Assembly (NCBI GenBank): GCA_020328045.1
Contig: JAIXMY010000004.1
Location: 1-35,039, forward strand
Direction: 5' to 3'
Length of the DNA: 35,039 nt
Origin: Candidatus Endomicrobiellum pyrsonymphae
GTDB lineage: Bacteria > Elusimicrobiota > Endomicrobiia > Endomicrobiales > Endomicrobiaceae
Part shown: in pieces, positions 29,690 to 34,830 of the stretch
How positions within the stretch are numbered: the stretch's first letter is position 1
How the letters are laid out: each line of letters starts with the position of its first letter
Translations under genes and position numbers: made by a program
The notes under the pieces: generated by a model
Told to the model about the DNA's origin: nothing
The model's database searches: none
Seen by the model: only the letters and a program-made list of their open reading frames with translations

Positions 29690-30055
29690 ATGAAAACAAC
29701 CAAAGATATTGGCTTTGAGAAAGAAAAAGAAGTTGTTGAGTATTTAAAAAAGTTAAAATATGAAGTTATTGAAACAAATTTCAGTACAAAATTTGGCGAG
29801 ATAGACATAATAGCAAAGCATAAAGACGCTATAGTTTTTATTGAAGTCAAATACAGAAAATCTTTATATAGCGGTGTCCCTCAAGAAGCAGTAACATTTA
29901 AAAAACAGCAGAAAATTATTAAGTCAGCAATAACGTACGTCAAGCAGAATAATATCAAAAATGATATTCGTTTTGATGTTGCTGCCGCAGATGATAATAA
30001 AGTAGAAATTATAGAATCAGCTTTTACATCTTCCGATCATTCATATTACTTTTAA
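29690..30055 (+). CDS. yraN: YraN/UPF0102 family nuclease-like protein
   Basis: GFEKEKEVVEYLKKLKYEVIETNFSTKFGEIDIIAKHKDAIVFIEVKYRKS. Confidence 0.92.
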   Translation: MKTTKDIGFEKEKEVVEYLKKLKYEVIETNFSTKFGEIDIIAKHKDAIVFIEVKYRKSLYSGVPQEAVTFKKQQKIIKSAITYVKQNNIKNDIRFDVAAADDNKVEIIESAFTSSDHSYYF

Positions 30056-30768
30056 ATAATATAAAGTACAAACGATGTGATTTTAGAAAATCCGTTTGTG
30101 ATGAGTAATACGCCAGTAAAAATCAACAATATTCCTGATACGATTTCTATTGTTTTATAATGTTTTTTTATAACATTAAAGGCGCTTAAAAATTTATTTA
30201 CAAAAAGAGCAGTGAGCATAAACGGAATGCCAAAACCCAAAGAATAAAATACCAACAACCAAAACCCGTTTAAAATTGTTTCTTGAGTTGAAGCAACAAT
30301 TAAAATTGATGCCAAAACCGGACCAACACACGGTGTCCAACCTAAAGCGAATGTTACACCTGTAAAAAATATGCCTATGTTTGTTAGCGCTGAGGGTGGA
30401 CTTTTGCTTGCATAAGAAAAATGTCTATACAGAAAACTGATTTTTAATACTGCGCACATATGCAGTCCAAACAATATGATGATGCAACCGCCGATATATC
30501 TCAATATTGCGTTATATTTGCCAAGCAAACTTCCAAACTGACTCACAGACATTCCAAGTCCAATAAAAACAAGAGAAAAACCCAAAATAAAAAGCAAAGT
30601 TTTTATAAATATATGCTTTGATGATTTATTTGATGTCTTTAAATCGTCAACTGACATGCCGGTTATAAGAGAAATAAAAGATGGTATTAAAGGCAAAACA
30701 CAGGGACTTACAAAACTTGTAAGTCCGGCAACTAAACTTATAAAAACAGTGACGTCATTGGTAGTCAT
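30052..30768 (-). CDS. ccdA: CcdA/DsbD-family transmembrane thiol-disulfide electron transporter
   Basis: GLTSFVSPCVLPLIPSFIS, GVTFALGWTPCVGPVLASIL; start trimmed to MTTNDVTVF after GTGGGGG. Confidence 0.93.
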   Translation of the reverse strand: MTTNDVTVFISLVAGLTSFVSPCVLPLIPSFISLITGMSVDDLKTSNKSSKHIFIKTLLFILGFSLVFIGLGMSVSQFGSLLGKYNAILRYIGGCIIILFGLHMCAVLKISFLYRHFSYASKSPPSALTNIGIFFTGVTFALGWTPCVGPVLASILIVASTQETILNGFWLLVFYSLGFGIPFMLTALFVNKFLSAFNVIKKHYKTIEIVSGILLIFTGVLLITNGFSKITSFVLYII

Positions 30769-30798
30769 TTGTCCCCCACGATAAAAATCAAACCTATT

Positions 30799-31174
30799 AA
30801 TCATCCTTTTGCGCCATTAGACGCTTTTATTTTACTCTACGCTAGGCGCAAAGTGTGTTTACAATCACCCTACAACGTCTATTTCCTCTTTTGTGGTATT
30901 ACTACAGTATTTAATTAATGAATAACCGTAAGTTTTCTATGAAATCTTTTGAGAACTCTTAGGGAATGTTACATGCGACTTGTTAAATCTTGTGTTGATG
31001 TGAATTCAAGAGTTATCCAAACTATTGGCGGGCGAGAAAAGAATATACAACTTTTTCTGTTTGACTGCTGTCTATGAAAGAATGCTACATCTTTTCTATG
31101 GGTTTGTCAAATTTAAGATATTAAGATATAAAGTATTTATGAAATCTTTATGATTCTTATGTTTTCCTTGCAGA
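30799..31174 (-). repeat. Paralogous leader/promoter block, copy 1 (upstream of ccdA)
   Basis: gttgatgtgaattcaagagttatccaaactattgg (30994-31028) matches 34430-34464 with one mismatch; homology spans the whole block. Confidence 0.85.
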
Positions 31175-31251
31175 TGTGTGCATATCACTCAAGAGTCTTA
31201 AGCAAGACTTTAAGGAGCTTTGTCTATTTCCTATTCATCTTCATGTTCATC

Positions 31252-32124
31252 TCATTTTTCTTCAGGAAGAGCTTCGTTTATAATTTTTTCTAAGTTCTTT
31301 TTTTCCCGATCTTCTACTTCTTTTATTTTTTTTGCTAGAACCATTTTGCCGTCTTTGACTTTTTTAAACAAAAACAAACTTGGAACACCCTCTATTTTTA
31401 TTTGCAACTTCTCCAACAGGGAGGACTTAAATAATTCCCCATTTTCACTTGTATTAACTTTACATATTTTTGCTTTCTTCCCCTCATACGTAGATGCAAG
31501 TTCATTAACAGTAGGAGAAAGTTTCCTGCAGTGTGGACAATTTGGACTCGAAAAAACAACTAACACCACCGGCTTGTCCGACGACAAAACCTCTCTTTCA
31601 AATTCAGCTTCTCCAACAATTTCAACTGGCTTGGGTATTTTGCTAACTCTTTCTTCTGCTTTTTCGACTGCGTCTGCTTCTAACATCATCCCAACTGACA
31701 ATTTTTGGGCTATTTCCTTAATTGTTTCATCATATCCGTAGTCAGAGTATCGTTTAAGAAAACCTTTTTTAGTAGTAGCTACAGTATATCTAGTTGGATC
31801 GACATAGCATGAATGTTTGGCAGGGTCAACGCATTTACCTAAGCCTATGTCAAGATCATCATGGAAACAACACGAGGAAATTCCCTTTGAATTATCTCTT
31901 GGAACGATGTTGGTGTTATAACATACACCTTTATTTGGATCAATACATTGATTTTCCTTAAGACCCCATTGAACCAGGTTTCCATCGTAACAACACGTAG
32001 TCGCAAGGTGGTTTCTCAGTATCCGATCATTTCCACCACTCCCATTATTCTTGTTGCTTCCACATGAACACAACACAAAGCTAAATAAAACAATAATGCT
32101 TACGACTTTCTTGAAATTAATCAA
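31252..32124 (-). CDS. Thioredoxin-fold lipoprotein with N-terminal tandem Cys-rich repeats
   Basis: Lipobox-like LCSC; CCYDGNLVQWGLKENQCIDPNKGVCY / CCFHDDLDIGLGKCVDPAKHSCY; VLVVFSSPNCPHCRKLSPTVNELA. Confidence 0.88.
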   Translation of the reverse strand: MINFKKVVSIIVLFSFVLCSCGSNKNNGSGGNDRILRNHLATTCCYDGNLVQWGLKENQCIDPNKGVCYNTNIVPRDNSKGISSCCFHDDLDIGLGKCVDPAKHSCYVDPTRYTVATTKKGFLKRYSDYGYDETIKEIAQKLSVGMMLEADAVEKAEERVSKIPKPVEIVGEAEFEREVLSSDKPVVLVVFSSPNCPHCRKLSPTVNELASTYEGKKAKICKVNTSENGELFKSSLLEKLQIKIEGVPSLFLFKKVKDGKMVLAKKIKEVEDREKKNLEKIINEALPEEK

Positions 32125-33764: not shown

Positions 33765-34181
33765 TCAGTTGTTTTTATTAACATTTACACGTGGCAAAGC
33801 TTGGAATTTTGAACTTGCTTTTTCCTCCAGTTCATCCATATCTATATCTTCTCCATAGCAAAGTTCCTCTACAAATTTCTCAGCTTCATCTACTTTCGTG
33901 CAGTAGTGGGCTCTGTCAATATCATTAGCTGCCTCTTCTGATACACTATGATCACATCCCCACGTTTTTGCACATTTTTCATGTTCTCCTTTTATATAAC
34001 GTGCCTGCATACAGTTCGCTCGAGAGTTTATATAGTTTTTCTGAGCTGCTGCACAATTAATTGTAATTGGTGGATCAAAAACTGGACATGTTTTAAATTT
34101 TTCAGCTCTACTAACCCCAGCAAAACAAAAACACAAAGCAAGTACTAAAACAACTTTTGTTACATCTTTAAATCTAATCAT
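33765..34181 (-). CDS. Secreted Cys-rich protein of unknown function
   Basis: Signal peptide MIRFKDVTKVVLVLALCFCFAGVSRAEKF; mature part has multiple Cys (KTCPVFDPPITINCAA...ANCMQ...EKCAKTWGC...HYC...ELC). Confidence 0.75.
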   Translation of the reverse strand: MIRFKDVTKVVLVLALCFCFAGVSRAEKFKTCPVFDPPITINCAAAQKNYINSRANCMQARYIKGEHEKCAKTWGCDHSVSEEAANDIDRAHYCTKVDEAEKFVEELCYGEDIDMDELEEKASSKFQALPRVNVNKNN

Positions 34182-34184
34182 TTA

Positions 34185-34654
34185 AACCATCCTTTTTTAA
34201 GCCATTAGGCTCTTTATTTAACTCTGCGCTAGGCACAAAGTATCTTCCTGCACAATCAAAGCTACCTGCTTTACCTTTCTTACACACTACGTACTGCTTC
34301 CTCCTTTGTGGTATTGTTGCAACATTCATTTAACTAGACTATGTGAATGTAGAGGTCTATTGTAAAACTTTTGTGAAATCATTTTGTGTCTTTTTTAAGA
34401 AATGTTACATGTGGATTGTTAAATTTTATGTTGATGTGAATTCAATAGTTATCCAAACTATTGGTGAGAAAAGAATATAGAACTTTTTTTATTTGACTGC
34501 TACTTGACAATTTTTATGCTTGTTTCTGTTTGATTCTGCTACTTGTAAGAGAATGTTACATTTTTTCCATGTGGTTTGTCAAATTTAAGATACAAAATAT
34601 TTACGAAATCTTTGGAACTTTGTTCCTTATGATTCTTAGCTTTTCCCTTGCAGA
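34185..34654 (-). repeat. Paralogous leader/promoter block, copy 2 (upstream of the Cys-rich protein gene)
   Basis: Homologous throughout to 30799-31174; includes conserved TTGACA-N17/18-TARCAT on the minus strand. Confidence 0.85.
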
Positions 34655-34772
34655 CCCGTATTATATCAAATCAAATTCTTAATTTATAATTCAACCCTAA
34701 AATCAAACAAAGATGACAAACAAAAATCAATCAAAAACTCTCAAAAAACGGCTAATAGGACTCTATAATAAA

Positions 34773-34830
34773 GGAGCTAAGCTCCAAGAGCCAATGGCTC
34801 AAGGAACAAAGTTCCAATGAACAAAATTCA
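34773..34830. repeat. 15-nt-period array of non-identical 13-nt triloop palindromes with AA spacers
   Basis: GGAGCtaaGCTCC AA GAGCCaatGGCTC AA GGAACaaaGTTCC AA TGAACaaaATTCA (4th unit 4/5 paired). Confidence 0.93.

Follow-up and report, generated by a model that had tools for sequence, protein, structure and literature searches.

A 15-nt palindromic unit gained in a multi-copy leader of Candidatus Endomicrobiellum pyrsonymphae, with a neighboring inverted array as its candidate template

Two paralogous leaders in the window, that is, the whole 35,039-nt stretch of DNA analyzed here (contig JAIXMY010000004.1), differ by a single short palindrome, which raises the question of whether this palindrome was gained or lost, and from where it could have been copied. 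In copy 1, gaaatcttt (31141-31149) is followed directly by atgattctta (31150-31159). In copy 2, the same two motifs (34605-34613 and 34629-34638) are separated by GGAACTTTGTTCC (34614-34626) and TT (34627-34628), the extra stretch GGAACTTTGTTCCTT (34614-34628) being exactly 15 nt long. The extra TT may be placed before or after the 13-nt palindrome, as the insertion site is a stretch of T. The preliminary description of this DNA read both leaders in the same way; the range that it gave, 34610-34632, contains the unit but also spans a few flanking bases. The features considered are as follows.

34614-34628, no strand: inserted unit, 13-nt triloop palindrome GGAACTTTGTTCC plus TT; not in copy 1, contigs C37 and C92 of this genome, or six leader copies of the congener G044
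34370-34670, plus strand: leader copy 2, filled, delimited by alignment; upstream of the minus-strand gene 33765-34181
30940-31190, plus strand: leader copy 1, empty; insertion point between 31149 and 31150
33765-34181, minus strand: small gene downstream of leader copy 2; signal peptide probable by eye
34750-34772, plus strand: conserved array-start word ggctaataggactctataataaa, common to the array loci of C51, C46, C117, C35, C91, C52, C85 and G044
34773-34785, plus strand: array unit 1, GGAGCTAAGCTCC
34788-34800, plus strand: array unit 2, GAGCCAATGGCTC
34803-34815, plus strand: array unit 3, GGAACAAAGTTCC; together with the AA linkers on its two sides, it corresponds exactly to the leader insert and its TT flanks in reverse complement
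34818-34830, plus strand: array unit 4, imperfect, TGAACAAAATTCA

The leader belongs to a family with several members, located ahead of different genes (window 30940-31190 and 34370-34670; contigs C46, C51, C37 and C92), and at least two of the downstream genes (C69, C46) start with a near-identical signal-peptide-like sequence. Copy 1 is flanked by the genes of a DsbD-like membrane protein and a secreted thioredoxin-domain protein (30052-30804, 31252-32124). The small gene 33765-34181 has no match in Pfam or PHROGs.

An inverted match to the insert lies in the array of the same window. The array segment AAGGAACAAAGTTCCAA (34801-34817) is the exact 17-nt reverse complement of the insert with its flanks, at a distance of 189 bp start to start, which bears out the earlier claim that the insert is the reverse complement of an array unit plus AA some 190 bp away. 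Given this exact match, array unit 3 is proposed as the template. A chance hairpin as the origin of the leader palindrome is ruled out by the excess over shuffles and controls: GGAACNNNGTTCC occurs twice in the window (0.01 expected from shuffles) and at 16 places in the 1.25-Mb genome, versus none for the reversed control.

The insert is one representative of a large set. About 41% of the genome (516 kb) was analyzed directly, and genome-wide figures come from sequence-search counts. Palindromes with a 5-bp stem, at least three GC per arm and a 3-nt loop number 113 versus 38-52 in shuffles, the highest count among loop sizes of 0-9 nt, in a sample comprising the first 336 kb that included contigs picked for holding GGAACNNNGTTCC; free of contig choice, GGRRCNNNGYYCC is found 48 times genome-wide versus once for the control. 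In G044, the closest congener found (96% identity over the deaD leader and start), the counts for GGRRCNNNGYYCC are eight and one, and only some of the eight places resemble array units. Palindromic 11-mers inside well-conserved genes (ispD, coaBC) were taken as chance matches, the control pattern also yielding 20-27 hits per strand.

Tandem pairs of units occur in this genome and G044 only, two of the 43 genomes of the genus. A tandem-unit scan of the genome collection gave five scattered hits (Treponema, a cyanobacterium, Dependentiae, Planctomycetota and Lachnospiraceae), which were treated as independent small arrays because these genomes show little or no overall excess. In a RadD-like helicase of Dependentiae (L076:1844-3598), the conserved PTGVGKT motif is closely preceded by three 15-nt palindromic units, in frame and joined by TT linkers, an architecture resembling the present arrays in an unrelated phylum, and a Treponema gene (L074:2334-3650) contains two adjacent 15-nt units, GGAACTTCGTTCC TT GGAACTTTGTTCC TT, encoding RNKVPRNEVP. 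The leader and array found no match in a plasmid search, and no report of such repeats in the Endomicrobium-like host group was found in the open-access literature.

The stems of these units vary in concert. Among 101 units chosen by purine/pyrimidine pattern alone, both variable stem pairs are Watson-Crick in 76, versus 29 in shuffles, a figure inflated by shared descent of the copies; among the 60 distinct 13-mers the count is 38 versus 16 expected. There are four main stem types (AA/TT, AG/CT, GA/TC and GG/CC), and the loops occur in both orientations. Adjacent units spaced 15 nt apart are few; in these pairs, the arms match within units in seven of eight cases and across units in two of eight.

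The unit occupies the same position in three leader copies of this genome (copy 2, C46 and C51) and is missing from three others (copy 1, C37 and C92). G044 possesses many leader pieces, and all six that cross the insertion site are without the unit. C92 and two of the G044 copies present a clean empty site. The four other G044 copies (L143, L152, L157 and L161) carry an unrelated tandem duplication of the 8-bp TATGACTC nearly at the insertion spot; given this duplication, replication errors may be favored at this site. Because all six G044 copies lack the unit, the empty leader is, on the sequence comparison, the ancestral state, and the 15-nt unit was gained, in line with the preliminary description, which had favored insertion over a deletion in copy 1. 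A tree of the leaders in this genome, run to date the gain, is mosaic and requires two changes, and the three filled leaders are therefore not counted as independent gains. They are probably copies of one leader-plus-array module, so that perhaps a single event is involved. The best explanation of the insert is a derived insertion of one unit from a lineage-specific set of 13-nt triloop palindromes.

Changes of unit length recur at other loci. Self-comparison of about 0.5 Mb revealed indels of 15 nt (leader, C99/C35 and C46/C110), 14 nt (C74/C120), 17 nt (C51/C46) and 12 nt (C75/C70); the initial portion of C110, being a long inverted duplication, is to be discounted. The preference for exactly 15 nt proposed earlier holds insofar as this is the commonest array spacing, but the spacings range over 12-16 nt, with 12, 14 and 16 nt also present, and the indels are not confined to 15 nt. 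At a second site, G044 contig C15 reads TGTAACGACCTTGCGCC without a unit, while C99 contains two units, and a single one is present in C91 and in C35, with CT or AT flanks. The added sequence preserves the reading frame in C99 and, by our reading, would likewise preserve it in C35. Within about 100 bp of the second site, C91 and C35 possess an array unit whose loop is complementary to that of the inserted unit; there is no array directly beside the units of C99.

We suggest, with a probability of about one half, that the 15 nt were gained by short-range inverted template switching from the neighboring array. An array of opposite loop sense is located 134-171 bp downstream of all three filled leaders, and downstream of none of the seven empty leaders for which the following 700 bp are available. 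With this adjacency, local copying could explain the insert without mobility in trans. A nascent strand ending in ...CTTT would pair, about 190 bp away, with one of the AA linkers in the array, polymerization would copy one unit (GGAACTTTGTTCC) as far as the next AA linker, and return to the original template via the new TT would leave exactly 13+2 nt, the AA/TT linkers supplying a 2-nt microhomology at both switches. Arrays could expand and contract by slippage between the 2-nt linkers, and fold-back switching would keep both arms of a unit complementary, so that stems diversify while the palindrome is retained.

Template switching is known to homogenize arms and to invert spacers (PMC8604942), and the stem covariation and the two loop orientations fit this mechanism for that reason. 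The second-site units of C91 and C35 and the unit-length indels of the arrays fit as well. On the other side, the units of C99 have no array beside them; the array association may rest on one event, if the filled leaders are copies of one module; the C46 array is now without the exact unit; and the spacer inversion described in PMC8604942 concerns yeast, with arms longer than 5 bp.

The varied identical 2-nt flanks would also fit target duplication, and the units could then be, though with a rather small likelihood, a trans-acting mobile micro-element, in which a putative nuclease or transposase inserts 13-nt hairpins and yields a 2-bp target duplication. Flanks of 2 nt are identical (AA, GG, CC, GA and AG among them) at 18 of 43 chromosomal units, and flanks of 3 nt at only one; however, most of the former are linkers within arrays, and the C25 case included in the count is a conserved hairpin. 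Empty and filled sites at two loci, many copies within one genome, and the similar behavior of yeast mitochondrial GC clusters with their AG flanks (PMC4478555) also favor mobility, whereas 13 nt seems too short for two transposase ends, the stems of the units vary, and the filled leaders always adjoin arrays. The preliminary description had called the palindrome a mobile or copied micro-element: copying from the adjacent inverted array is the favored half of this statement, while mobility of its own, though possible, is opposed by the location of all filled leaders, and of no empty one, beside arrays. That the units constitute a novel type of mobile DNA in bacteria, below the size of any other known to us, seems unlikely; in that case 13-nt covarying hairpins would insert with a 2-bp target duplication, form 15-nt arrays and add five codons on landing in genes, and a prophage rich in them might have spread them in this lineage.

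Contig C30 (L016, 4916 bases) encodes a phage neck/tail-completion protein and has the highest unit density among the sampled contigs. Its units are located between genes, filling the gaps, and in reading frames, where they code for low-complexity stretches such as SSEQSSEQS. By way of speculation, C30 may be the source of the units. The phage-like protein has no relatives in the viral contigs searched, and the two matches of the array pattern in viral contigs were both to unrelated GC-rich contigs and were set aside.

Quite improbable is that the units are simply selected hairpins, which arose by ordinary mutation plus selection and persist through a structural role in RNA or DNA, for instance within 5' or 3' untranslated regions. 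Covarying stems would agree with this, as would the deaD gene, whose ribosome-binding region is closely preceded by a hairpin of this class here, in G044 and in several other congeners; but many units are in arrays and reading frames without a common position relative to genes, and the leader unit appears as a sudden 15-nt gain. The deaD hairpin, GGAGCTTTGCTCC (L048:4332-4344, contig C25; L101-L119), lies just ahead of the ribosome-binding region of the deaD-like helicase gene and is shared, with changes, by several congeners. This palindrome of the deaD 5' untranslated region (C25:4332) was ruled out as a further insertion, being an old hairpin, and is possibly a separate regulatory element.

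Deletion of an ancestral unit from copy 1 is highly improbable, as the unit is missing from all six site-crossing G044 copies and from two further copies in this genome. Since the mosaic tree needs two changes, one loss or conversion could be placed in copy 1, where a later loss is possible. That the insert is an artefact of assembly or whole-genome amplification is hardly credible: although many long, chimera-like inverted duplications, frequently located at the ends of contigs and with 3-39 nt between their arms, are present in the assembly (positions 86-128 of C110 lie within one), the insert is present in three contigs whose leaders differ by 6-18%, covarying stems cannot come from chimeras, and an amplification chimera was rejected as the source of the leader insert, the window having no long inverted duplication. 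Palindromes at the loci that do have such duplications (L016, L017, L037, L038, L045, L053, L054, L055, L072, L088, L092 and L096) need care.

Covarying stems, combined with exact gains of units at sites that are empty in a sister species, provide a natural test of how short palindromes originate, remain perfect and multiply in bacterial genomes. If template switching is true, this genome richly documents a process studied mostly in reporter assays; if transposition is true, the unit is an exceptionally small mobile element.

Among known systems, CRISPR arrays have repeats that are identical and are separated by unique spacers some 30 nt long, while the present units vary and have 2-nt linkers. 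Cyanobacteria reportedly possess very small mobile repeated elements, said to have been described by Elhai et al. in 2008, of 21-27 nt with conserved sequence and proposed to be mobile. The units are likewise very short bacterial repeats for which mobility can be proposed, but they have 13 nt and are conserved in structure more than in sequence. Rickettsia palindromic elements are in-frame palindromic repeats adding whole codons. The present units share this with them and with PARCELs (PMC2996958), whose repeat, however, is 75 nt long and encodes a 25-aa motif matching DUF285, whereas the units have 12-15 nt (4-5 aa) and are also abundant outside genes; the repeat-bearing ORFs that were scanned gave no Pfam match. 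REP and REPIN sequences with RAYT transposases (PMC3116915, PMC3733652) are similar in being short dispersed bacterial palindromes, both single and clustered, but REPs are palindromes of 20-40 bp with GTAG or CGTC tags that work as doublets, while the 13-nt units are untagged and the flanks examined are without such a tag.

Quasipalindrome mutation by template switching (PMC8604942, PMC7202029) is close in mechanism, as fold-back copying equalizes arms and can invert the spacer. The perfectly complementary arms, the four stem types, the loops in both directions, and a nearby inverted template (the 17-nt match 189 bp away and the arrays beside all filled leaders) agree with it. Quasipalindrome mutation, however, is usually described as correcting an existing imperfect palindrome, whereas here a whole palindrome would have been copied to a new place.

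The GC clusters of yeast mitochondria (GC42 and its relatives), which have AG or ACT repeats at their flanks (PMC4478555), are likewise short palindromes with sporadic presence or absence, clean empty sites, 2-nt terminal direct repeats, and units that merge and shuffle. Presence versus absence with a clean empty site is observed here at the leader, among paralogues and in G044, and similarly at the second site. The direct repeats could correspond to TT in the leader and to CT at the second site, the 18 of 43 identical 2-nt flanks being mostly array linkers. As to movement between unlinked places, all filled leaders adjoin arrays, and dispersed arrays are present on many contigs. Unlike the units, GC clusters are mitochondrial and longer (42 nt in GC42); the units are bacterial, have 13 nt with widely varying stems, form 15-nt arrays, and offer only one well-polarized single-unit gain. 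The case is best read as inverted copying from the neighboring array, and so as a new instance, on a very small scale, of the spread of palindromes inside a genome.
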